Below, in pieces: positions 9,486 to 37,750 of a DNA stretch of 40,037 bases. Each line of letters opens with the position of its first letter. Within the stretch, counting starts at the first letter, position 1. The notes below the pieces were generated by a model. The model did no database searches and had not been told where the DNA came from. It was given only the letters and a program-made list of their open reading frames with translations. The translations under genes and the position numbers were made by a program. This DNA is from Deltaproteobacteria bacterium (GTDB lineage: Bacteria > Desulfobacterota > Syntrophobacteria > Syntrophobacterales > Syntrophobacteraceae): NCBI GenBank assembly GCA_021793275.1, contig JAJYTC010000022.1, forward strand, positions 1 to 40,037, written 5' to 3'.

Positions 9486-10454
9486 ATGGCCGAACAGCTT
9501 TTGCCCAACCTGTACCGGATAGAGATTCCCCTTCCGGAAAGCCCTTTAGGTTGGGTAAATTCTTATGTAATAAAGGATAAGAGGCGGAACCTCATTATCG
9601 ATACGGGGTTGAATCGAAAAGAATGCCTCGAAGCCATGCTGGCGGGTTTGAACGAAATAGGGGTGGACCTCAAGCAAACCGACTTCTATATAACCCACTT
9701 ACATGCCGACCACTTTGCCCTTGCCCAGTTGCTGTTCGATGAAAACACAAAAGTGTATATGAACGAGCCGGATAAGGAATACATGGAGAACTGGCCGAAC
9801 TGGGGGCCGGTTATCGAGTTCTATGCTGTGAACGGTTTTCCCCGTGATGATATCGACTATGTGATCAGCAACCATCCAGGCCAAAAATACGGATCGGACC
9901 GGATACCTGTGATGACCGCCGTAAGAGACGGTGATATCATCAGCTACGGGGGCTTCAACTTCACGGCTGTTTCGACTCCCGGGCATACGCCGGGTCATAC
10001 ATGCCTCTACGAACCCGGGAAAAAGTTTCTCATCTCCGGAGACCACATACTGATTGACATAACGCCCAACATTGGCTGTTGGATGGAAGGAATTAATCCG
10101 CTCAAGCTCTATATCGAGAGTCTGAAGAAAGTTTATGGCATGCAGGTCGACCTTGTGTTGCCGGGGCATAGACGCATTTTAACTGATTGTAGAGGTAGAA
10201 TAGACGAACTCCGGCAGCACCACAACGAAAGGCTGCTGGAAGTGCTCTCGATTTTGGCGCATGGCCCCCGAAACGCCTATGAGACGGCCTCCGGCATGAC
10301 CTGGGATATCGACTGTAGTTCCTGGGCCGCTTTCCCGGTTTTACAAAAATGGTTTGCTACCTCCGAGGCCATCGCCCATTTGAGGTATCTCGAAGATGAC
10401 GGAAAAATCGTCAGGCAAGAGCAAAACGGCTGCAGGCTGTATTCATTGACATGA
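9486..10454 (+). CDS. Metallo-beta-lactamase-fold hydrolase
   Basis: 322-residue MBL-fold hydrolase. The metal ligands are visible as THLHADHFAL (HxHxDH, about 73-82), GHTPGHTCLY, SGDHILIDI and LPGHRR. The last 80 residues look like the winged-helix tail of LACTB2-type MBL proteins (NERLLEVLSILAHGPRNAYE, then AIAHLRYLEDDGKIVR). The family includes thioesterases, nucleases and lactonases, so the substrate cannot be told from sequence. A strong AGGAG site stands before ATG 9486. It converges with the acyl-CoA synthetase gene, and a link to acyl-thioester hydrolysis is possible but unproven. Confidence 0.88.
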   Translation: MAEQLLPNLYRIEIPLPESPLGWVNSYVIKDKRRNLIIDTGLNRKECLEAMLAGLNEIGVDLKQTDFYITHLHADHFALAQLLFDENTKVYMNEPDKEYMENWPNWGPVIEFYAVNGFPRDDIDYVISNHPGQKYGSDRIPVMTAVRDGDIISYGGFNFTAVSTPGHTPGHTCLYEPGKKFLISGDHILIDITPNIGCWMEGINPLKLYIESLKKVYGMQVDLVLPGHRRILTDCRGRIDELRQHHNERLLEVLSILAHGPRNAYETASGMTWDIDCSSWAAFPVLQKWFATSEAIAHLRYLEDDGKIVRQEQNGCRLYSLT

Positions 10455-10486
10455 CCGATTATGCCGGGCGGTTCTGATTGTTGAAA

Positions 10487-10514
10487 GGAAGGGGATGGGC
10501 TTCAATCCCCTTCC
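10487..10514. terminator. Terminator hairpin between convergent genes
   Basis: GGAAGGGGAT (10487-10496) and ATCCCCTTCC (10505-10514) form a perfect 10-bp stem with an 8-nt loop. It lies between the MBL gene (plus) and the acyl-CoA synthetase gene (minus). Read on the minus strand, the stem is followed by TTTC, so it fits best as the end of the synthetase transcript. Confidence 0.65.
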
Positions 10515-10524
10515 CCAGCACATA

Positions 10525-12171
10525 TCAAGCATCCTTTCGCAGCAGGAAACGCTGGATTTTTCCGCTCGGGGTCTTCGGAAGCTGTTCGACGAATTCAATT
10601 TCCCTGGGGTACTGATGTGCGGCCAGGTGTGTCTTGACAAATGCCTTCAGCTCTTCGGCGAGTTCCTCGCTGGGGGCAGTTCCCGGTTTCAAAGCCACGT
10701 ATGCCTTGACAATCTGGAGACGCAGTTCGTCCGCCTTTCCCACCACGGCAGCTTCCGCCACTGCCGGATGTTTTATCAAAGCGCTCTCCACTTCAAAGGG
10801 GCCAATCCGGTAGCCTGCGCAAAGAATTATGTCATCCGAGCGACCGCTGAAGTAAAAGTAGCCGTCCCCATCCATGCTTACCGTGTCTCCCGCCAGATAG
10901 TATCTACCGCTGCACAGGAATCTTTCCTTTGTCCTGGCCTCATCATTCCAATAGCCGCGAAACCAGAATAGAGGTGAGTTTTCCACATCTGCCGCGAATA
11001 TGCCATCTACCCCGGCCTCCAGCTCCCTGCCCTCTTCGCTAACGACCGTCATTCGGAAGCCCGGCATGGATTGCCCCAGCGACCCCATCTTGAGCGGCCG
11101 CTTGAGATCGGCTCTATGATGATTGTTGGCGACCATGCCCAGTTCGGTCTGTCCATAGTGGTCGTGGATCGGAACTCCCAAAACCTTCCGGCTCCATTCG
11201 ATTACTTCCGGGTTAAGAGGTTCTCCGGCGCTCGAAGCCACGCGAAGGTACAAGGGAAACTGCGCGGCCGCCTTGTCTCCTTCAGCCTTTAAGGCGCGAT
11301 AGGCTGTCGGGGCGGAGGCAAAATTAGTCACCCGGTATTGGCTCAATATGCGAAAAACATCGGTAGCGTTGAAGGGCGCATTGAAAAAGAGGGTGGCTTT
11401 TCCCACAAGGAGCGGCCCCATCGCATTGTAGTACAGCCCGTACGCCCAACCGGGATCGGCCATGTTCCAGAACATATCGTCTTCCCTGATATCAAGGCCG
11501 AATTCCATGTAGGCCTGAAAGGCGGCAAGGGCTTTGACCGGGACCTCGACACCCTTTGGACTTCCGGTCGTGCCCGAGGTGTAAAGCATGATCATCATGT
11601 CATCGCCAGTGACCGGCGTCGGTTTCTCCAGGGGATTTGCCTTTTCCAGCTCGTTCCAGAAGCTGTAGTCACCTTCTTCGATCCCTTTGCCAAGCGCATC
11701 GGCGACGGTGATTACCCGGATATTGCCGCCAACGCAACTGGGCGCATCATTTAACTTCGGCCTATGGGCGGCGTTTGTCACCACAGCCGAGGCCCCGCTG
11801 TCGCCGGCCCGAAGCTCGATGGCATCGGGGCCGAACGCGGTGAAAAGAGGAACGTATACGGCGCCCAACCGCCAAACCGCAAGGGCCGTTATGAGCAACT
11901 CGGGCGTTTTGGGAAGGAGCGCGGCCACCCGATCGCCCTTTTTAATACCGATCGATTGCAGAAATCCCGCCATTTTTGCCGAAAGCTCCCGAAGCTCCCT
12001 GAAGGTGAATTTGAGGGACCGACCCTGCTTGTCTTCGTAGAACAGCGCAATCTTTTCGGGGATAGAGGCATGCCTGTCGCAAAGAAAATAAGCTGCGGAA
12101 ACACCGCTGCCCCCGTATTCCTTCAGCCAGGATTGCACAGCTTCTTCCGGTGCCATTGCTGTCATCGCCAT
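10525..12171 (-). CDS. AMP-forming acyl-CoA synthetase (AcsA-like)
   Basis: ANL-superfamily ligase that activates a carboxylic acid to acyl-AMP and then acyl-CoA; 548 residues, shorter than classical Acs (about 650) and like Bacillus AcsA or medium-chain enzymes. Core motifs are LYTSGTTGSPKGV (ATP loop), HDHYGQTELG, YLAGDTVSMDGDGYFYFSGR (ribose-binding aspartate) and SDDIILCAGYRIGP (hinge). The C-terminus has LPKTPSGKIQR with the catalytic lysine. PKTPSGK fits the PX4GK motif acetylated by Pat enzymes, and a Pat-type gene lies divergently next door. AAGGAG precedes ATG 12171. The acid substrate (acetate, propionate or another) cannot be fixed from sequence. Confidence 0.92.
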   Translation of the reverse strand: MAMTAMAPEEAVQSWLKEYGGSGVSAAYFLCDRHASIPEKIALFYEDKQGRSLKFTFRELRELSAKMAGFLQSIGIKKGDRVAALLPKTPELLITALAVWRLGAVYVPLFTAFGPDAIELRAGDSGASAVVTNAAHRPKLNDAPSCVGGNIRVITVADALGKGIEEGDYSFWNELEKANPLEKPTPVTGDDMMIMLYTSGTTGSPKGVEVPVKALAAFQAYMEFGLDIREDDMFWNMADPGWAYGLYYNAMGPLLVGKATLFFNAPFNATDVFRILSQYRVTNFASAPTAYRALKAEGDKAAAQFPLYLRVASSAGEPLNPEVIEWSRKVLGVPIHDHYGQTELGMVANNHHRADLKRPLKMGSLGQSMPGFRMTVVSEEGRELEAGVDGIFAADVENSPLFWFRGYWNDEARTKERFLCSGRYYLAGDTVSMDGDGYFYFSGRSDDIILCAGYRIGPFEVESALIKHPAVAEAAVVGKADELRLQIVKAYVALKPGTAPSEELAEELKAFVKTHLAAHQYPREIEFVEQLPKTPSGKIQRFLLRKDA

Positions 12172-12504
12172 AATATCGCTCCTTGGTTGATTTATGTGCG
12201 GAACAAAAAAGCGAGGTCCCTTTTCATGCGCCTATTTCAGCCCTATTCAGCCAAACCGTCAAGATTATAGTTATTAACAGCTATGCGTACCCCGCGCAGA
12301 GGACAACAGCTCCCGGCGCTTTTCGTCCTTCGCTCTTTTCCGATATTTTGCGGCCGAGTAACAAACGTTCTTGAACAGGCGATGCAAAATAATTATCACG
12401 AAGAATGCCGGATAGCTCCGCGTCCTGAGTCGGGATTCATCTTTCAGGCGCCGGGCTTTGATTGTGAAGCTTTGACCCGGAACACAGGAAAGGACGACGG
12501 AAAA
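12172..12504. promoter_or_regulatory. Divergent intergenic region, synthetase / Pat-like gene
   Basis: 333 bp with no recognisable gene. On the minus strand, TTGACG (12262-12257), 17 bp, TGAAAT (12239-12234) is a possible promoter for the acyl-CoA synthetase. On the plus strand, TTGAAC (12371-12376), 17 bp, TATCAC (12394-12399) is a possible promoter for the Pat-like gene. An open frame runs from 12283 into the Pat-like gene but has no family-like sequence before 12505. Confidence 0.4.
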
Positions 12505-14952
12505 ATGAGGCGTTTGCATGGGATGTTCGATCCAAAAACGATAGCCCTTATCGGCGCAACTGAGAAAGAAGGCGCCATCGGAAGGAAAATCCTGGAAAAC
12601 CTGCTCCGGTCCCATGACAGGGGAATTTTTCCGGTAAACCCCAATGCGAGCAAAGTATTGGGAATCAAGAGCTATCCAGATATCTCAAGCATTCCTGAAA
12701 AGGTGATGCTGGCGGTGGTCGCCGTTCCCGCCCGGTCGGTGCCGAAGGTGGTTGAACAATGCGGCCGGTCGGGGGTGGACGGGGTGATAATAATCTCTTC
12801 CGGGTTCAAGGAGGCCGGTGAGGAAGGCGCGCAACTGGAACGTGAAGTAGACCTTATCAGGGAAAAGTATGGAATGCGCATCATGGGACCGAACTGCGTC
12901 GGTTTTATGCGGCCCTCCCTGGGCTTGAACACGTCTTTTCTCCTTGCCCGCCCCTCACCGGGAAACATCGCCTTTATCTCTCAGAGCGGCGCGCTCGGCG
13001 GCGCGATACTCGATTGGGCGGTTAGCGCCGGGATTGGCTTCAGCCTGTTTGCATCCCTGGGGTCCATGGTCGATATCGACTTTGGCGATATGATCGATTT
13101 TCTGGGCAACGACCCGGACACCAGGAGCATCCTGATCTATATGGAGGACGTGGGCAACGCTAAAAACTTCATGAGTGCGGCTCGGGAGTTCGCCCGACGC
13201 AAACCTATCATCATTTTGAAGCCGGGACGCTATGAACAGAGTGCAAGGGCGGCCCGCTCCCATACCGGAGCAACGGCAGGCGACGATGCGGTATATGATG
13301 CAGTCTTCAAGAGGGTTGGCGCCTTGAGGGTGGGGGAAATATCGGAACTTTTCGAGGCCGCCGCGGTCCTTGATTCGCAGAGACTGCCCGCCGGCCGAAG
13401 GCTCGCAATAGTAACCTGTGCCGGCGGACCCGGCGTGATTGCCGCCGATGCGCTCATGGACAGGGGGGGCGAACTGGCGCGCCTGTCCGATGAGAGCATG
13501 AAGCAGCTCGACGCCATTTTGCCGCCGTACTGGAGCAGGAATAATCCCGTCGACGTGCACGGAGACGCAACCGTCGACAGATTCATGCAAGCCGTTTCCA
13601 TATGCCTTGCCGACCCCATGGTGGACGCACTGCTGGTTATTTACGTGCCCATGGAATCCGCCCCTTCAACCCGGTTTGCGCGCGCCGTGGCCGAGGTGGC
13701 GAAAAAGTGGTGGAAGCCGGTCGTCGCGGCATGGATGGGGGCAAAGGATGCCGAAGAAGGCAGACGCATTCTTGTCGATCAGGATATACCGGTTTACGAC
13801 ACTCCCGAGCAGGCGGTCAGAAACTATATGAATTTGTACGAGTACAAAAGGAATCTCGACAAGCTCTATCAGACCCCTGAAGCATTGCCCGAGCCCGGGG
13901 CGCCCTTCAAAAACCGTTTGAAAGAGCTTCTCGGGACGGCAGTCGAGCAAGGACGAACGATCCTGAGCGAAGATGAGTCCAGGGATTTTCTCACTAGCTA
14001 CGGCATCCCGGCTGCGACGCAAACAAGTGTCACAGACATTGACTGCGAGCTCACTATCAGGGCCAGAAAGGACATGGACTTCGGTTCGGTCATCCTCTTC
14101 GGCATGGGGGGAAAAAATGCCGGGTTCTTCAAAGATTTTTCCGTGGGTCTGCCGCCGCTCGACCAGACATTGGCCAAGATACTTATCCAGAATACCAAGG
14201 TATACAACCTGCTCCGGAGTTTTAGCGGCAAACAGGCGGCGGATTTCGAAGAACTCGAGCAGATCCTTGTCAATTTTTCCAATCTGGTTGTAGACTTTCC
14301 CCAAATAGCCGAAATCGAAATAAACCCTCTCGCCGTTTCAAACGGCAGACCCCTGGCCCTTGACGCCCGAATCACTATCGACACCAATCTCGATGCCAGC
14401 GCACGATCCCCCTACCCTCATCTGGTCATCACGCCTTATCCAACCAAGTACATTACACACTGGCGGCTCCCCGACGGGACCGACGTGCTCGTGAGGCCCA
14501 TACGCCCCGAAGACGAGCCGGCCGAGCAGGAAATGCTCTCATCGCTATCCATGCGAACTCTTCAAACCCGATTTTTCTCGACGATCAAAAACATAGGCCA
14601 TGAATGGCTTATCCTGCTCTGTAACGTAGATTACGACCGGCACATTGCGATAGTTGCGGAAGTGCGGGAAAATGAGAAGACCAGGATAATCGGCGATGCC
14701 CGACTCATTATGGGCCACGATCCGACTTACGGAGAAGTGGCCGTTTTAGTTCACGATGATTTCCAGGGCAAAGGGCTCGGGACAAAATTTGTAGAGATGC
14801 TCGTCGAAATAGCCCGCGAAAAGGACCTCGACTTCATAAGGGCCGACGTGTTGACCGAGAACACACGAATGCTCCACGTCTTCAAGCGCCTGGGGTTTAC
14901 AACTCAGTGGTTTATCGGCGGTAAAAGCGAAGCCGTACTGAAGTTGAAATAA
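12505..14952 (+). CDS. Pat-type protein: ADP-forming CoA ligase with GNAT domain, ATP-grasp shortened
   Basis: 815 residues from ATG 12505 (MRRLHGMFDP). Order: CoA-binding Rossmann domain (IALIGATEKEGAIG, about 12-25), succinyl-CoA-ligase-like domains with the phospho-histidine motif SHTGATAGDD, a short ATP-grasp remnant, then a GNAT acetyltransferase (about 660-815) with QGKGLG for acetyl-CoA. This is the layout of E. coli/Salmonella Pat, which acetylates acyl-CoA synthetases. Compared by memory with Salmonella Pat, about 75 residues are missing between TSVTD and DCELTIRARKD. These are the ATP-grasp lobe with the VxLKxxSPDxxHKS-type segment, so ADP-forming ligase activity is unlikely. The GNAT domain is complete. 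The gene is divergent from an acyl-CoA synthetase carrying the PX4GK target motif, which supports a regulatory acylation role. Confidence 0.87.
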   Translation: MRRLHGMFDPKTIALIGATEKEGAIGRKILENLLRSHDRGIFPVNPNASKVLGIKSYPDISSIPEKVMLAVVAVPARSVPKVVEQCGRSGVDGVIIISSGFKEAGEEGAQLEREVDLIREKYGMRIMGPNCVGFMRPSLGLNTSFLLARPSPGNIAFISQSGALGGAILDWAVSAGIGFSLFASLGSMVDIDFGDMIDFLGNDPDTRSILIYMEDVGNAKNFMSAAREFARRKPIIILKPGRYEQSARAARSHTGATAGDDAVYDAVFKRVGALRVGEISELFEAAAVLDSQRLPAGRRLAIVTCAGGPGVIAADALMDRGGELARLSDESMKQLDAILPPYWSRNNPVDVHGDATVDRFMQAVSICLADPMVDALLVIYVPMESAPSTRFARAVAEVAKKWWKPVVAAWMGAKDAEEGRRILVDQDIPVYDTPEQAVRNYMNLYEYKRNLDKLYQTPEALPEPGAPFKNRLKELLGTAVEQGRTILSEDESRDFLTSYGIPAATQTSVTDIDCELTIRARKDMDFGSVILFGMGGKNAGFFKDFSVGLPPLDQTLAKILIQNTKVYNLLRSFSGKQAADFEELEQILVNFSNLVVDFPQIAEIEINPLAVSNGRPLALDARITIDTNLDASARSPYPHLVITPYPTKYITHWRLPDGTDVLVRPIRPEDEPAEQEMLSSLSMRTLQTRFFSTIKNIGHEWLILLCNVDYDRHIAIVAEVRENEKTRIIGDARLIMGHDPTYGEVAVLVHDDFQGKGLGTKFVEMLVEIAREKDLDFIRADVLTENTRMLHVFKRLGFTTQWFIGGKSEAVLKLK

Positions 14953-14963
14953 CAGGCTGATTA

Positions 14964-14997
14964 TTGAAAGCCCCGCCTGAAAAGACGGGGTTTTCAA
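14964..14997. terminator. Terminator between convergent genes
   Basis: TTGAAAGCCCCG (14964-14975) pairs with CGGGGTTTTCAA (14986-14997), with one G-T pair and a 10-nt loop. It sits 11 bp after the Pat-like gene and before the convergent FMN-oxidoreductase gene, so it can serve both. Confidence 0.7.
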
Positions 14998-15047
14998 CGG
15001 TCTGCAAGGGCCGGTTTCGGTCTTTTTGTTTCCCCGGCCGATCAGTT

Positions 15048-16055
15048 CTAGTGCAAAAGGTCGGACGGCAGATGCTTGAGCGACCGAGTCCCGGTCATGA
15101 CCATGGCCTGCATAAGTTCTGTGCGCAGGGACTCGATATATACGCCAACGCCTTCGGTCAATCCGCCCATGGCAGCGACGCTGAAAGGGCGTCCGATCAT
15201 GACCGCGTCCGCCCCGAGGCGGAGCATTTTAAGCACGTCGCCCCCGGTGCGGATCCCGCCGTCGACGATGATTTCAATTTTTCCCTTCATCTCCTCCGCG
15301 ATTTTTGGCAGCACGTCCGCGGTGCCGGGGGTGTGATCCAAAACCCGCCCGCCATGGTTCGAAACGACGATGGCGTGCGCCCCCGCCTCGTGGGCAAGCT
15401 TGGCGTCTTCCGTAGTCATGACACCCTTGAGGATAAATTTCGTGCCCGTTCTGGTGATGATTTCGCGAAGCTTTTCGACCGGCTTGGCCGAAACGGGGCG
15501 GCCCATCTTGCGCAGGGTGATGAGCCCGGCCGCGTCGATGTCCATGCCGATGATCGAGGCGCCCGCGCCCCTGGCCTTTTCCAGTTTATCGTAGAGTTCG
15601 GCATCCTCCCATGGCTTGATGAACGGGATACCATGACCGTCCGCTGCGGAAATGGCCGCGAAGGCGGCTTCGTGGATGAACGGCGGGACGCCGTCACCCG
15701 TGCAGCCGATGATGCCTCCACTGCGGCAGCCGTCGATGATGGCGGTGATGTATTCCTGCTCGGTGCGCTTGCCGCCCATGTTGAACGCGACGCCTCCGAT
15801 GGGCGCGGCCAGAACGGGCATGGACATCTTCATACCGAGCAACTCGGCGCCGGTGTCGGGTTCTGTGATGTCGTGCACCAGGCGCATGTTGAAAGTGTGA
15901 CGGGCCAGGGCCTCGACGTTGGCCATGAACGACGCTCCGGTGCCGAGGCCGCCCATGCCGGGCACTTCCCCGGCGCAGGCCTTGCCGTTGCAGACCGGAC
16001 AGACCCGGCAGAAACCGGCCATCAACTCACGTGCGGCTTTGCGTATTTCCTTCAT
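15048..16055 (-). CDS. FMN-dependent alpha-hydroxy-acid oxidoreductase with N-terminal Cys cluster
   Basis: 335-residue TIM-barrel flavoprotein of the glycolate/lactate oxidase family. The substrate-site histidine and arginine are in VVSNHGGRVLDH, and the FMN phosphate loop is DGGIRTGGDVLKMLRLGAD followed by AVMIGRPF. IGMDIDAAGL carries the conserved aspartate. Unlike plant glycolate oxidase, the N-terminus has C16, C19, C22 and C27 (CRVCPVCNGKAC), a possible metal or Fe-S site, which I have the impression is typical of the version in anaerobes. Electron acceptor and substrate are unknown. GGAG stands before ATG 16055. It is convergent with the Pat-like gene and appears monocistronic. Confidence 0.88.
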   Translation of the reverse strand: MKEIRKAARELMAGFCRVCPVCNGKACAGEVPGMGGLGTGASFMANVEALARHTFNMRLVHDITEPDTGAELLGMKMSMPVLAAPIGGVAFNMGGKRTEQEYITAIIDGCRSGGIIGCTGDGVPPFIHEAAFAAISAADGHGIPFIKPWEDAELYDKLEKARGAGASIIGMDIDAAGLITLRKMGRPVSAKPVEKLREIITRTGTKFILKGVMTTEDAKLAHEAGAHAIVVSNHGGRVLDHTPGTADVLPKIAEEMKGKIEIIVDGGIRTGGDVLKMLRLGADAVMIGRPFSVAAMGGLTEGVGVYIESLRTELMQAMVMTGTRSLKHLPSDLLH

Positions 16056-31269: not shown

Positions 31270-34200
31270 TCAGTCTACCTCCGGGCTGGATTGAGAAGAG
31301 GAGCCGGCGGGCAGCTCTTCGTCGGGCGCAATCTTCTTTTTCTTCGAGCGCTCGGCGAGGTTGTCGAAAATATAGAAAAAGAGCGGAACATAAAGCATGG
31401 CCAGAGTGGTCTCGCCGATCATGCCCCCCATGATTCCCGTGCCGATCGAGTGGCGGGCGTTTGCACCCGCCCCGGTGGCTATGGCCAGTGGAAGCACGCC
31501 AAGGATGAAGGCAAGCGATGTCATGATGATCGGTCGCAGCCGCTCCTCACCCGCCTTTATGGTCGCGTCCATAATGGATTGGCCCTGCTTTCGCAAATCG
31601 ACGGCAAAGGTGACCCTGAGTACTGCGTTTTTAGCCCCGAGCCCGATGAGCACCAGGAGACCGATTTGAAAATAGACGTCGTTTTGAAGGCCGCGCATCC
31701 AGTTGAAAGCCAGCGCTCCCAGGATCCCGAAGGGCACCGCCGTCATGACCGATCCCGGCAGGGTCCAGGACTCGAACTGGGCGGCCAGTACGAGAAAAAC
31801 GATGATCAGTCCGAAAGCAAAGGCCGCTACCGAGGTCGCGCCCGCCTTTTTTTCCTCGTAGGCCATCCCCGACCAGGAATAGTCATAGCCGTAGGGAAGC
31901 ACCTCGCGCGCCACTTCCTCCATGGCACTGATCGCGTCCCCCGAGCTGTAGCCCGGGGCCGCCGATCCGGTAATCTGCGCGGCGGGGAAGCCGTTGAAGT
32001 GCGGCACAAGATCGGGGCCGGTAACGTATTTAGCGTCCACAAGAGCTGAGAGAGGCGCCATCCGTCCCTTTTTCGACTCTACGTACAGCCTTTTGATGTC
32101 CGCAGGCCTGCGCCGGTAGGGGGCATCGGACTGAAGGATGACGTCCCACACGCGGCTGTACTGATTGAACTGGCTCACCGTGATCGAGCCGAACTGGGCC
32201 TGGAGCGCGCTGTAGACGTCGGCGATCGGGACCCCGAGAAGCGCGCACTTCGAACGGTCCACATCCACCCGGAGCTGTTGGGACGACGCGCGAAAGGTCG
32301 AATTAAGACCGGTTACTTCAGGCCTCCGGCGTGCCTTTGCCAGAACTTTTTGCGTTATTTCGTAGAGCTGTCCGGGATTTCCTCCATTTTTGTCCTGAAT
32401 CCAGAGTTCGAAGCCTCCGGTCACGCCGATGCCCGGAATTGCCGGCGGCGCAATCGGAATAAACACGCCTGTATTTTTGCTCCTGCGCGCTTGCGCCCAT
32501 GTCTGCAAAAGCACCGCCTTCGCGTTTTCCTTAACAGCGCGTTTTATCGAGGAATAACGCTTCTTGAAGTCCTTTAGCGGTACGAATATGGTCGCAGCGT
32601 TGGTCTTGTACTGATTGTCGATAAGGCTGTATCCGCTTACGACCGCCCGGTCGGCTACCGCAGGATTCTCGGCAAAGAGCTTGTCCACAACCTCCGTGGC
32701 CCTGGTTGTGCGTTTGAGACTGGTCGCGTCGGGCATGAGGACCATTGCCATCAGGTAGCCCTGATCTTCGTTTGGAACGAAGCTCGTCGGGATGGTGTGA
32801 AAAAGGTAGACGAGCCCTCCTATCAGCACGGCAAGCACCGCAAACGCCACTACCATTCGTTCGATCATGAACACCACCAGGTTGCCGAAAACAGCGGTGA
32901 AGCGGTCGAATTGTCGATTGAACCATGCAAACGGGCCGCGTTGAGGCGGGGCCCTGTGTTTGAGCATGAGCCCGCACATCGCCGGAGTAAGGGTGAGGGC
33001 CACAAACCCGGAAAGAGCTACCGAAATGACGATTGTGATTGCAAATTGCTTGTAGAGCTGCCCCGTAGTGCCGGGCAGAAACGCCGCCGGAATGAAAACC
33101 GACGCCATCACCAGCACCACGGCGACAAGCGAGGTAGCGATCTGCTCCATTGCCTGGATCGTGGCCTCTCGGGGCGCAAGGTTGAACTTCACCATGTTGC
33201 GCTCCACATTTTCGACCACCACGATAGCGTCGTCGACCACCATGCCTATGGCCAGCACAATACCGAACAGGGTCAACAGGTTGATCGAAAATCCCATCGC
33301 AAGCATTCCGGGGAATGTGCCGATGAGCGCCACAAAAATCGCTACCGTGCAGATGAGCGTAGCTCGAAGACTTTGCAAAAAGAGATAAACGATCAGCACA
33401 ACCAGCACTATCGCCTCGATCAGAGTGTGAAGGATCTCTTCGATCGAAAGGCGGACAAAATCAGTGGTGTCGAGAACAACCTTGCATTGGATCCCGTCGG
33501 GCAAGGTTCGTTTGAGCTTCGCCAAGGTTTGGCGCACGCCCTTGGAGACATCGAGCCCGTTCGCCCCGGGCTGCTGGTAGACGGCGATAAGGGCAGAGGG
33601 CGCTCCGTTCAAAAGGGTGTCGTCGATATATGCTTTGCGGCCGATTTCGGCGCGGGCGACGTCTTTTAGACGGACAATGGCGCTGCCGTTACGGTTGGCG
33701 CGCAAAATGATGTTGTCATACTGCGAGGGCTCGACGAAAGGGGACTGGGTTACGACCGGCAGGGTGAGCTGCACCTTGCGGGCGTTGGGCTGCTGCCCGA
33801 TCTGGCCGGCGCCGAACAGGGCGTTTTGGCGAGCCACCGCGTTTTGGATGTCGGTCGTCGTTATCCCGAGGGAAGCCATGCGGTCCGGATTCATCCAGAT
33901 GCGCATCGCCTGGTCGGGCACCCCGAAAATCTGCGCCTGCCCCGCCCCATTGACTCGCTTGATTGCGTCGAGCACATAGATATTGGCGTAATTGTCCACA
34001 TATTCCTGACTGTAGCGGCCGTCCTTGTTGGTCACTGCGATGATCATCAACATGCTCGAGGACTTCTTCTGCACCGAGACCCCGTACTGCACCACGGCTT
34101 GAGGGAGCTGAGGCATGGCGAGGTTTACCCGGTTTTGCACCTGCACCTGCGCAATATCCGGGTCGCTGTCCAGTGTGAAATAGACGGTTATGACCAACTT

Positions 34201-34461
34201 GCCGGTGTTGGAGCTGGTCGAGGTCATGTAGAGCATGTTGTCGACCCCGTTGATCTGGGCCTCGATCGGCGCGGCCACCGAATCGGCCACCGTCTTGGCG
34301 TCCGCACCCGGATAGGTGGTGGTGACCTGGATCTGTACGGGTGTGATTGTCGGGTACTGGGAGACCGGAAGCACCTTCATCGAAACCAGGCCGGCTATAA
34401 CGATGATGAGCGAAATGACCGTGGCGAATATGGGCCTTTCGATAAAAAACCTGCAGAACAT
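31270..34461 (-). CDS. RND efflux pump, HAE1 family (copy 2)
   Basis: 1063 residues, the AcrB/MexB size, with 12 transmembrane helices and two periplasmic loops. It opens with MFCRFFIERPIFATVIS. The proton-relay aspartates are in GMVVDDAIVVVENV (TM4) and the lysine in GLGAKNAV (TM10), with RLRPIIMTSLAF and GTGIMGGM after it. TM10 reads AKNAVLRVTF where AcrB has AKNAILIVEF, shared with copy 1. AGGAGG precedes ATG 34461, 28 bp after copy 1. It is closely related to copy 1, and the C-terminal 150 residues are nearly identical. The drug or solvent substrate is unknown. Confidence 0.95.
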   Translation of the reverse strand: MFCRFFIERPIFATVISLIIVIAGLVSMKVLPVSQYPTITPVQIQVTTTYPGADAKTVADSVAAPIEAQINGVDNMLYMTSTSSNTGKLVITVYFTLDSDPDIAQVQVQNRVNLAMPQLPQAVVQYGVSVQKKSSSMLMIIAVTNKDGRYSQEYVDNYANIYVLDAIKRVNGAGQAQIFGVPDQAMRIWMNPDRMASLGITTTDIQNAVARQNALFGAGQIGQQPNARKVQLTLPVVTQSPFVEPSQYDNIILRANRNGSAIVRLKDVARAEIGRKAYIDDTLLNGAPSALIAVYQQPGANGLDVSKGVRQTLAKLKRTLPDGIQCKVVLDTTDFVRLSIEEILHTLIEAIVLVVLIVYLFLQSLRATLICTVAIFVALIGTFPGMLAMGFSINLLTLFGIVLAIGMVVDDAIVVVENVERNMVKFNLAPREATIQAMEQIATSLVAVVLVMASVFIPAAFLPGTTGQLYKQFAITIVISVALSGFVALTLTPAMCGLMLKHRAPPQRGPFAWFNRQFDRFTAVFGNLVVFMIERMVVAFAVLAVLIGGLVYLFHTIPTSFVPNEDQGYLMAMVLMPDATSLKRTTRATEVVDKLFAENPAVADRAVVSGYSLIDNQYKTNAATIFVPLKDFKKRYSSIKRAVKENAKAVLLQTWAQARRSKNTGVFIPIAPPAIPGIGVTGGFELWIQDKNGGNPGQLYEITQKVLAKARRRPEVTGLNSTFRASSQQLRVDVDRSKCALLGVPIADVYSALQAQFGSITVSQFNQYSRVWDVILQSDAPYRRRPADIKRLYVESKKGRMAPLSALVDAKYVTGPDLVPHFNGFPAAQITGSAAPGYSSGDAISAMEEVAREVLPYGYDYSWSGMAYEEKKAGATSVAAFAFGLIIVFLVLAAQFESWTLPGSVMTAVPFGILGALAFNWMRGLQNDVYFQIGLLVLIGLGAKNAVLRVTFAVDLRKQGQSIMDATIKAGEERLRPIIMTSLAFILGVLPLAIATGAGANARHSIGTGIMGGMIGETTLAMLYVPLFFYIFDNLAERSKKKKIAPDEELPAGSSSQSSPEVD
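31345..31808. repeat. Near-identical 3' segment, RND copy 2
   Basis: 464 bp matching 34559-35022 at a constant offset of 3214 bp, with about 17 mismatches counted by eye (about 96% identity). It covers the last TM helices of both pumps. The central parts of the two genes are much more diverged. Confidence 0.85.
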
Positions 34462-34489
34462 GTGATGGCCCCTCCTGTTTGCCTCTCAT

Positions 34490-37400
34490 CTATTCGGTCT
34501 GCTGTGCCTGCTCGTTTGGCTCGAGCCTCGCGCCTTCAGCCTTTTCTTTTCTTCTCCGGGAGCGCTCGGCGAGGTTGTCGAAAATATAGAAAAAGAGCGG
34601 AACATAAAGCATGGCCAGGGTGGTCTCGCCGATCATGCCCCCCATGATTCCCGTGCCGATCGAGTGGCGGGCGTTGGCGCCCGCCCCGGTGGCTATGGCC
34701 AGCGGAAGCACGCCAAGAATGAACGCAAGCGATGTCATGATGATCGGTCGCAGCCGCTCCTCACCCGCCTTTATGGTCGCGTCCAGGATGGAATGGCCCT
34801 GCTTTCGCAAATCGACGGCAAAGGTGACCCGGAGTACTGCGTTTTTAGCCCCGAGCCCGATGAGCACCAGTAGTCCGATCTGAAAATAGACGTCGTTTTG
34901 AAGACCGCGCATCCAGTTGAAAGCCAGCGCTCCCAGGATCCCGAAGGGCACCGCCGTCATGACCGATCCCGGAAGGCTCCAGGACTCGAACTGGGCGGCC
35001 AGGACGAGAAAAACGATGATCAGACTGAAAATGAAGGCCGCAGTTGAGGTCGCACCCGCTTTTTTTTCCTCGAAGGCCATTCCCGACCACGAATAGTCGT
35101 AGCCGTAGGGAAGCACCTCGCGCGCCGTCTCTTCCATGGCCTCGATCGCATCCCCCGAGCTGTAGCCCGGGGCGGCCGAACCGGTGATCTCCGCAGCGGG
35201 AAAACCGTTGAAATGCGGCACCAGGTCCGGGCCTCTGGCGTATTCAATTTTCACCATGGCCGATAGAGGCGCCATCCGCCCCGTTTTCGACCTCACGTAC
35301 AACCTTTTGATGTCCGAGGGCTTGCGCCGGTAGCGGGCATCGGATTGAAGAATGACGTCCCACACTCGGCTGTATTGACTGAACTGGCTCACCGTGATCG
35401 AACCGAACTGGGCCTGCAGCGCGCTGTAGACATCGGCGATGGGGACCCCCTGAAGCACGCACTTCGAACGGTCGACGACAACCTTGAGCTGCTGGGAGAA
35501 GGCATTGAAAGAGGAACTCAAGCCTTTGAGCACGGGCCGCTTGCGCGCCTTGGCGAGAAACTTCCGCGTAATCTCGTAGAGCCGCGCCGGGTCCCCTGCC
35601 CCCGTATCCTGGATCCAGAACTCGAAGCCGTCCGTTGTTCCGATACCGGGAATGGCCGCCGGAAAAAGCGGGACCAGCATGCCCGAATCAATGGAGCGTG
35701 CTTTGGCGGCCGTTTCTTTAAACACCGCCCTTGCGTTTTCCTTTAGCGCCCGTTCGGCCGAGGAATAACGCTCCTTGAAGTCCTTTAGCATGATGAAAAG
35801 GGTCGCTGCGTTGGTCTTGGTCTGAAGGTCGAGCACACTGAAGCCGTTTAGAATTACCCGGTGTTTGACCGCAGGGTTTTCGGCAAACAGCTTGTCCACC
35901 TTTTCAGTGGCCCTGGCTGTGCGGTTGATGCTCGACGCATCGGGCAGAAGGAAAATGGGAAACAGATAGCCCTGGTCTTCGCCTGGCACAAAACTCGTCG
36001 GGATGATGTGAAACAGGTAAACAAGCCCTCCCATCAGCACGGCAAGCAACACAAACGCCACACCCATTCGCGTGATCATGAAGAGCACCGCATCGCCGAA
36101 AGCGCGCGTGAAGCGTTCAAACTGTCGGTTGAACCATGCGAATGGGCCGCGTTGTCGAGGAGTCCTTTGTTTGAGCATGACCCCGCACATCGCCGGGGTA
36201 AGGGTGAGGGCCACAAACCCGGAAAGAGCGACCGAGATGACGATGGTGACTGCGAATTGTTTGTAGAGTTGCCCGGTAGTGCCGGGCAGAAACGCCGCAG
36301 GAATAAAAACCGAGGCCATCACCAGCACCACCGCTACAAGCGACGTGGCGATCTGCTCCATCGCCCGGATCGTGGCCTCTCGTGGAGGAAGGTTGTACTT
36401 GATGATGTTTCGTTCGACATTTTCAACCACTACGATGGCGTCATCGACCACCATTCCGATGGCGAGTATGAGTCCGAACATCGTCAGCAGGTTGATCGAG
36501 AACCCCATCGCGAGCATGCCGGGGAAGGCGCCGATCAGCGCGACGAAGATTGCGACCGTGCAGATGATCGTAGCCCGAAAGCTCTGCAAAAAGAGGTAGA
36601 CGACCAGCACGACAAGCAGTATGGCCTCGATCAGAGTGTGAACGATCTCCTCGATCGAAAGGCGGACAAAATCCGTGGTGTCCAGAGCGATTGTGCACCT
36701 GATGCCGTCGGGCATCGTTCGTTTGAGTTCCCGCAAGGCTTTACGCACGCCTTTACTGACTGCCAGGGCGTTTGCGCCCGGTTGCTGGTAGACGGCGATG
36801 ATCGTTGCCGGGATGGAGTCCAGCCGGGTATCCTGTACGTACTGTTTGCGGCCTGCCTCCACGCGGGCGACGTCTTTTAGCCGGACAATGGAGCTGCCCT
36901 TGCCGGCGGCGCGCAGGATGATGTTTTCATACTTCGAGGCCTGGATGAAGGGAGGCTGGGTCACCACCGGCATTGTGAGTTGGGGGGCGGTGTCGGAGGG
37001 CTCCTGCCCCAGCTGGCCTGCGCCGTGCAGTGAATTTTGGCGGGCCACCGCCTCCTGGATGTCGGTCGTCGTTATCCCGAGGGAAGCCATGCGGTCCGGA
37101 TTCATCCAGATGCGCATCGCCTGGTCGGGCATATCGTAGTAAACTTCAGACTGCCCCGCCCCATTGACCCGCTTGATCGCATCGAGCACGTAGACGTTGG
37201 CGTAATTTGCGACATAGTCCGGGCTGTAGCGGCCGTCTTTGTCGGTAACGGCGATAAGCATGAGCCATGCGGTCGATTTTTTCTGCACCGACACCCCGTA
37301 CTGCACCACGGCTTGCGGAAGTTGGGGCATGGCGAGGTTTACCCGGTTTTGCACCTGCACCTGGGCGATATCGGGGTCGGTGTTGAGACTGAAATAGACG

Positions 37401-37675
37401 GTTATGGTCAACTGGCCGGTATTCGAGCTGGTCGAGGTCATATAGAGCATGTTGTCGACCCCGTTTATCTGGGCCTCGACCGGCGCGGCAACCGAATCGG
37501 CGACGGTTTTGGCGTCCGCGCCGGGGTAGGTGGTGGTGACCTGGATCTGCACGGGGGTGATTGTCGGGTACTGGGAGACCGGCAGGACCTTCATCGCCAC
37601 CAGGCCGGCTATCACGATGATGAGCGAAATGACCGCTGCGAATATGGGCCGCTCGATAAAAAATTTGCAGAACAT
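34490..37675 (-). CDS. RND efflux pump, HAE1 family (copy 1)
   Basis: 1061 residues from ATG 37675 (MFCKFFIERP), chosen because AGGAGG lies 9 bp upstream; the frame reaches 37714. Same architecture and relay residues as copy 2. Differences cluster in the periplasmic substrate region: AGQSEVYYDMPDQAM against AGQAQIFGVPDQAM (one extra residue, Tyr for the AcrB Phe178 position) and LNGFSVLDLQTKTN against VSGYSLIDNQYKTN near the Phe615/617 switch loop. The two proteins could form different homotrimers or a mixed trimer. It starts 75 bp after the fusion-protein gene. Confidence 0.95.
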   Translation of the reverse strand: MFCKFFIERPIFAAVISLIIVIAGLVAMKVLPVSQYPTITPVQIQVTTTYPGADAKTVADSVAAPVEAQINGVDNMLYMTSTSSNTGQLTITVYFSLNTDPDIAQVQVQNRVNLAMPQLPQAVVQYGVSVQKKSTAWLMLIAVTDKDGRYSPDYVANYANVYVLDAIKRVNGAGQSEVYYDMPDQAMRIWMNPDRMASLGITTTDIQEAVARQNSLHGAGQLGQEPSDTAPQLTMPVVTQPPFIQASKYENIILRAAGKGSSIVRLKDVARVEAGRKQYVQDTRLDSIPATIIAVYQQPGANALAVSKGVRKALRELKRTMPDGIRCTIALDTTDFVRLSIEEIVHTLIEAILLVVLVVYLFLQSFRATIICTVAIFVALIGAFPGMLAMGFSINLLTMFGLILAIGMVVDDAIVVVENVERNIIKYNLPPREATIRAMEQIATSLVAVVLVMASVFIPAAFLPGTTGQLYKQFAVTIVISVALSGFVALTLTPAMCGVMLKQRTPRQRGPFAWFNRQFERFTRAFGDAVLFMITRMGVAFVLLAVLMGGLVYLFHIIPTSFVPGEDQGYLFPIFLLPDASSINRTARATEKVDKLFAENPAVKHRVILNGFSVLDLQTKTNAATLFIMLKDFKERYSSAERALKENARAVFKETAAKARSIDSGMLVPLFPAAIPGIGTTDGFEFWIQDTGAGDPARLYEITRKFLAKARKRPVLKGLSSSFNAFSQQLKVVVDRSKCVLQGVPIADVYSALQAQFGSITVSQFSQYSRVWDVILQSDARYRRKPSDIKRLYVRSKTGRMAPLSAMVKIEYARGPDLVPHFNGFPAAEITGSAAPGYSSGDAIEAMEETAREVLPYGYDYSWSGMAFEEKKAGATSTAAFIFSLIIVFLVLAAQFESWSLPGSVMTAVPFGILGALAFNWMRGLQNDVYFQIGLLVLIGLGAKNAVLRVTFAVDLRKQGHSILDATIKAGEERLRPIIMTSLAFILGVLPLAIATGAGANARHSIGTGIMGGMIGETTLAMLYVPLFFYIFDNLAERSRRRKEKAEGARLEPNEQAQQTE
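34559..35022. repeat. Near-identical 3' segment, RND copy 1
   Basis: Partner of 31345-31808. The ends of the two tandem pump genes share far more identity than their middles, which suggests recent gene conversion or strong constraint on the C-terminal membrane half. Confidence 0.85.
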
Positions 37676-37750
37676 GCGGTGGCGCCTCCTGTGCTCGCAA
37701 CTGCGAGACGACAAGCCGAAAGAAATATGAGGCCGCTGCTTTTCCCTCTC

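Follow-up and report, generated by a model that had tools for sequence, protein, structure and literature searches.

Protein acetyltransferases such as E. coli PatZ (YfiQ) and Salmonella Pat represent the type I (class I-alpha) lysine acetyltransferases (PDB 9isq, 9it0), recognized by a GNAT P-loop (R/QxxGxG/A) together with the catalytic Glu found in PatZ. The N-terminal domain of Salmonella Pat binds acetyl-CoA and is required for activity, and Pat proteins oligomerize (PMC8556138). The acyl-CoA synthetase domain is inactive in the characterized type I and type II Pats, and what exactly this module contributes to Pat-type acetyltransferases is only partly understood (PMC8556138). Acetylation of Acs is a known role of Pat (PMC6456759). 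The crystal structure of the ADP-forming synthetase (ACD) Nmar_0206 revealed the subdomain order 1-2-5-4-3, in which subdomain 4 is described as comprising the ATP-binding site and subdomain 3, the ATP-grasp lid (residues 503–577), sits inside subdomain 4 (PMC11494057). The lid is catalytically important in phosphate binding and transfer, i.e., H535 accepts phosphate from ATP and hands it over to H256 on the swinging loop (PMC11494057). Neither lid-less Pats nor the PatZ structures 9isq, 9it0, and 9isb turned up in a limited literature search.

Domain Organization of the Window Protein

The window, i.e., the whole 40,037-nucleotide stretch of DNA analyzed, encodes a Pat-like protein (Table 1) that shares with E. 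coli PatZ (YfiQ) and Salmonella Pat the domain order CoA-binding, Succ_CoA_lig, CoA-ligase, ATP-grasp, and C-terminal GNAT. This is the module order of a type I Pat, except that the synthetase module is incomplete owing to a missing lid. The GNAT domain carries both the P-loop (QGKGLG) and the catalytic Glu (Glu744) expected of type I Pat/PatZ. With respect to ACDs, the CoA-binding, Succ_CoA_lig, and CoA-ligase subdomains are present along with the swinging-loop His (His253), whereas a complete ATP-grasp domain with the lid and its phospho-His is absent, 74 residues of lid being missing. The ATP-grasp_5 match (residues 513–625) covered only positions 109–221 of the 221-position Pfam profile, and the protein scored 514.7 bits against TIGR02717 (NCBIfam, acetate--CoA ligase alpha subunit), below the curated cut-off of 567.15. 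The structural model of the window protein had a mean pLDDT of 83.3 and a pTM of 0.81. It could be superimposed on 9isq_A along its entire length (790 residues, VIA Z 33.5, rmsd 4.2, 34% identity) and aligned with 618 of the 625 resolved residues of 8wzu_B. As originally predicted, the length was 815 aa, with the phospho-His loop and the GNAT domain intact and the reading frame open over 815 codons without interruption.

TABLE 1. Features of the window protein and its divergently transcribed neighbor.
Feature	Coordinates	Strand	Basis or remark
AMP-forming acyl-CoA synthetase, divergent, candidate substrate	10525..12171	-	PF00501, PF13193
Lid-less type I Pat-like protein, 815 aa	12505..14949	+	ATG start; stop codon 14950-14952
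Subdomain 1, CoA-binding, residues 7-135	12523..12909	+	PF13380 / PF02629
Subdomain 2, Succ_CoA_lig, residues 152-289	12958..13371	+	PF13607, full profile 1-138
Swinging-loop His253 (RSHTGA), kept	13261..13263	+	Counterpart of Nmar_0206 H256 (PMC11494057)
Subdomain 5, CoA-ligase (Ligase_CoA_2), residues 301-450	13405..13854	+	PF19045
Junction AATQTS, six codons, 74-codon lid (subdomain 3) missing within	14011..14028	+	Ortholog alignment
C-terminal part of subdomain 4 (ATP-grasp remnant), residues 514-625	14044..14379	+	PF13549 (ATP-grasp_5)
GNAT acetyltransferase domain, residues 645-815	14437..14949	+	PF00583, PF13302
Glu744, aligned to the catalytic Glu of Pat/PatZ, kept; followed by P-loop QGKGLG	14734..14736	+	

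The Missing Segment Is the ATP-Grasp Lid

The closest orthologs of the window protein were about 890 aa long and showed 67–71% identity. Alignment with three of them (L009, L010, and L011) showed that the window gene is shorter by 74 codons (222 nt), in agreement with the approximately 75 residues originally predicted to be missing at this junction. The residues YGIP-AATQTS-VTDIDCELTIRARKD at 13999–14072 are read through in frame with no frame break, and the precise point of deletion can be placed anywhere in the six codons AATQTS. Profile alignment placed the missing segment on the Nmar_0206 lid (residues 503–577), including H535 and the HKS motif; thus, the conserved lysine and the HKS segment named in the original prediction are indeed gone, and with them the lid Lys and the first phospho-His. 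Models of the window protein and L009, built from alignments of 20 sequences each and both with a pTM of 0.81, were in accordance with this. The L009 model contained a compact alpha/beta unit at about residues 501–580 (strands 504–507, 524–529, 542–546, and 574–579; helices 510–520 and 549–566) that was absent from the window model, in which the helix 489–498 and the strands 514–534 flanking the lid site remained. The lid of 8wzu itself was not seen in the density (PMC11494057). Hence, the lost piece matches one defined structural unit, subdomain 3 with the lid Lys and the first phospho-His. Inserted as it is into subdomain 4, the lid can be taken out without preventing the remaining protein from folding. 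The claim that the deletion "removed nucleotide binding" is too strong, because the remainder of subdomain 4 is still present and was modeled as folded; only the loss of the lid Lys and the first phospho-His is certain. The missing lobe lies neither elsewhere in the window protein nor in an orphan gene; a search of the whole genome with the intact lobe as query returned only the lobes of four other ACD or Pat proteins (32–37% identity).

Recurrent Loss of the Lid in the Family

The absence of the segment is not a one-off, since many homologs lack it as well. The spacing of the flanking motifs in 64 homologs was bimodal, being either 40–58 residues (19 proteins) or 113–119 residues (45 proteins). 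Among 79 sampled homologs, 31 were lid-less and 48 lidded, a lid-less share that is biased upward and uninformative on natural frequency, as the homologs were sampled by similarity to a lid-less query. Trees computed without the lid columns gave seven changes of lid state, at least six of them on well-supported branches; this count takes the lidded state as ancestral, which fits the lidded stand-alone synthetases, and the placements of L036, L076, and L033 in it rest on long branches. The count of seven held for a set of 79 proteins and also when all ATP-grasp and swinging-loop columns were dropped to avoid convergent decay. A single ancestral loss, with all lid-less proteins in one clade, was rejected by the AU test, as was a common loss for the window protein and the Syntrophia-type lid-less clade. 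As read from these trees, the lid was lost at least six times independently, and the loss in the window protein is one of these. The window copy was the only lid-less member sampled in its five-sequence clade, and its loss looks recent, the window protein resembling an early stage. The same genome encodes a second lid-less Pat (L002, G000:C231:53314-55716).

State of the Catalytic Motifs

Both the swinging-loop His and the lid His were kept in 37 of the 45 lidded proteins, while five lacked the lid His only and three lacked both. Replacement of the histidine of the HKS motif (by FRQ, FRA, VRA, DRI, or LRV) was seen in the lidded proteins L017, L018, L020, L069, L071, L079, and L082, and in L069 and L071 the loop His was lost as well. 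In the lid-less proteins, the [ST]HT loop motif was kept in only 2 of 31, the window protein among them. Other lid-less clades have also lost ATP-grasp motifs, e.g., EIEIEIVV in place of EIDINPL. In the Syntrophia-type lid-less clade (L064, L065, L077, L078, L132, L135, L137–L143, and L145), Gln replaces the GNAT catalytic Glu and the SHTG loop motif is mostly absent; a lidded paralog is present alongside the Syntrophia-type lid-less Pat in G149, G249, G366, and G455. This pattern suggests that the lid may have been lost first and the loop His and ATP-grasp motifs later. In independent pairs, lid loss and loop-motif loss agreed in three to four, disagreed in none, and showed no difference in two to three, numbers too few for significance. 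At L027:4932-6757, Pat-like matches occur in two overlapping frames over less DNA than expected, and this copy may be broken or misassembled.

Origin of the Gene, Authenticity of the Deletion, and Constraint

In sister species, dprA and topA are adjacent or have a metallo-beta-lactamase-fold gene between them. In the window (9486–16055), dprA and topA are separated by genes for a metallo-beta-lactamase-fold protein, the acyl-CoA synthetase, Pat, and an FMN-dependent dehydrogenase, and the last three were found at this site in no other genome examined. Close orthologs of the window Pat were absent from the sampled genomes of the same order but do occur in another class of the phylum. The likely source of the gene is a Syntrophia-type donor, from which it would have entered the dprA–topA interval. 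Contamination was ruled out, as topA is 86–89% identical to its best same-genus matches and the contig therefore belongs to the genome. Elsewhere in the window (31270–37714), two adjoining RND-type efflux pump genes (1063 and 1074 aa) resemble a tandem duplication.

Of the positions invariant in nine intact orthologs, 10 of 48 were changed in the ATP-grasp remnant of the window protein, including G519R and E540G, as against 14 of 208 elsewhere (Fisher p = 0.005, a test that treats positions as independent and was applied to a domain picked with the deletion in mind). The same test on four sisters gave 0–2 changes in the remnant, and the more distant L066 gave 4 of 52. In subdomain 2, 67 of the 70 invariant positions were unchanged, and all three changes lay at residues 243–267, around the swinging loop; the changes at invariant GNAT sites were conservative only. 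Divergence at codon positions 1 and 2 relative to position 3 was 0.21–0.47 in the window comparisons, with 0.29–0.40 in the remnant vs. 0.11–0.23 among the sisters. Positions 1 and 2 being slower than position 3 in every domain, the window protein is constrained throughout. Thus, constraint is relaxed chiefly in the ATP-grasp remnant, and codon-level constraint persists in every domain.

These observations bear on whether the gene truly lacks the lid. The source is a draft genome of 278 contigs and all four sisters carry the lid, as would be expected if a metagenome assembly or strain-mixing error had hidden it. Such an error is nevertheless quite unlikely, as the substitutions specific to the remnant would be unexpected were the lid present, and the piece excised in frame is one structural subdomain that many homologs also lack. 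Collapse of the assembly at a repeat was likewise rejected: only short direct repeats (9–15 nt), none of them strong, lie near the junction, repeats at both original deletion ends having been compared by eye with diverged orthologs only. The originally predicted clean in-frame deletion, leaving a CoA-binding module and a GNAT domain, is therefore supported over an artifact. It is very unlikely that the gene is a functionless, recently acquired copy in which lid loss is one step of decay. The gene does stand outside its normal lineage, on an end branch of 0.28 vs. 0.05–0.13 for the sisters; however, the open frame, the persisting codon-level constraint, and the merely conservative changes at invariant GNAT positions speak against decay, and lid-less homologs are old and widespread.

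The conserved SHTGA loop and subdomains 1, 2, and 5 might also be read as a sign that the CoA-side half reaction (acyl-CoA + phosphate to phospho-His) still takes place at His253, which would serve as a phosphate/acyl-CoA switch for the GNAT domain. This appears highly improbable, as the scarcity of the loop motif among lid-less proteins suggests that it drifted once the lid was gone and was not maintained for a function, and the three changes in subdomain 2 cluster around this very loop.

Association With Acyl-CoA Synthetases

A gene for an AMP-forming acyl-CoA synthetase lies next to that of a lid-less Pat in the window, G000:C231, G002, G004, and G006. These five adjacencies stem from three separate losses in the genus of the window organism; among the genomes examined they are confined to this genus, and other lid-less Pats lack such a neighbor. 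One lidded Pat (L107/L013) also adjoins an acyl-CoA synthetase. At G000:C231:53314-57378 (L085:8267-12541), the second lid-less Pat of the same genome is encoded directly downstream of an AMP-forming acyl-CoA synthetase and in the same orientation, an arrangement shared with G004 and G006. The adjacency would be in keeping with the acetylation of Acs by Pat. The divergent synthetase of the window carries the C-terminal PX4GK motif (LPKTPSGKIQR), which is uninformative as proof of a substrate, since every one of the ten synthetases examined has it and the neighbor does not stand out. A SIR2 deacetylase is encoded in the same genome.

Proposed Function and Comparison With Known Systems

It is rather probable that the window protein is a PatZ-like type I Pat in which the lid has been excised and the ligase cycle is dead, retained as an acyl-CoA sensor and acetyltransferase, and that the loss is recent and recurrent. 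In a PatZ/YfiQ-like protein, excision of the whole lid, including the Lys and the first phospho-histidine of ACD subdomain 3, would block phosphate transfer from ATP to the swinging-loop His253, and with no such route, the ADP-forming acyl-CoA ligase cycle would be dead. Subdomains 1, 2, and 5 may be kept as an oligomerizing scaffold for the C-terminal GNAT domain that senses acyl-CoA in the manner of Salmonella Pat, and the neighboring AMP-forming synthetase is a candidate acetylation target. Such a lid-less enzyme would probably couple acetyl-CoA sensing to an acetyltransferase with no need for ATP. Only tentatively can lid-less Pats be regarded as a recurrent selected class, in which excision of the lid time and again turns an active ADP-forming acyl-CoA ligase/acetyltransferase into a pure acyl-CoA-gated acetyltransferase; the window protein, its His253 kept, would then stand at the first step, with the loop His perhaps still in use as a phosphate-dependent switch.

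Oligomerization of Pat proteins (PMC8556138) also raises the question of whether a lid could be supplied in trans, with a mixed oligomer of the window protein and a lidded paralog still running the ligase cycle. Two lidded Pats with both histidines (G000:C46 and G000:C224) are encoded in the same genome, and lidded and lid-less paralogs occur together in several Syntrophia-type genomes. Yet these lidded paralogs are only about 45% identical to the window protein, conserved residues are being lost from its ATP-grasp remnant, and the swinging-loop motif is also gone from other lid-less clades, making this arrangement most improbable. Many lidded ACD–GNAT fusions, including G000:C46 and G000:C224, keep both histidines and may be bifunctional, unlike E. 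coli PatZ.

Under the preferred reading, an excised lid with the CoA scaffold retained, the repeated clean loss of one ATP-handling subdomain is natural evidence that ATP handling is dispensable and the CoA-binding scaffold is not. The same lid having been lost at least six times, evolution appears to keep turning the enzyme into a probably ATP-independent acetyl-CoA sensor and acetyltransferase. The "natural separation of the two activities" originally proposed already exists in the characterized type I and type II Pats with their inactive synthetase domain; here, the break lies at a different step.

Overall, the window protein is a type I Pat variant whose lid has genuinely been excised, in one of several events that occurred independently. 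E. coli PatZ took a different route, keeping the lid and HKS and lacking the swinging-loop His, whereas the reverse holds for the window protein. Similar to the ACDs Nmar_0206 (8wzu) and Ca. Korarchaeum ACD1 (4xyl), the window protein conserves the swinging-loop His, and its subdomains 1-2-5-4 follow the Nmar_0206 order; it differs from them in the added GNAT domain and in the absence of subdomain 3, and hence of the first phospho-His. Its direct sisters in the tree are lidded ACD–GNAT fusions (L009, L010, L062, and L063 of Syntrophus/Smithellaceae, together with L011) that keep the lid with both catalytic histidines, the 74 residues absent from the window protein. As both histidines are kept, these sisters may be complete ligases and acetyltransferases, i.e., candidates for truly bifunctional enzymes, and with the window protein they form a matched pair (67–71% identical) for separating the two activities. 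Other lid-less clades (e.g., L002, L033, L064, L070, L072, L076, and L025) lack the same segment, from the YGIP region to the ELxxG...DFG region, through independent and apparently older losses, and unlike the window protein, most of them are without the swinging-loop and ATP-grasp motifs.
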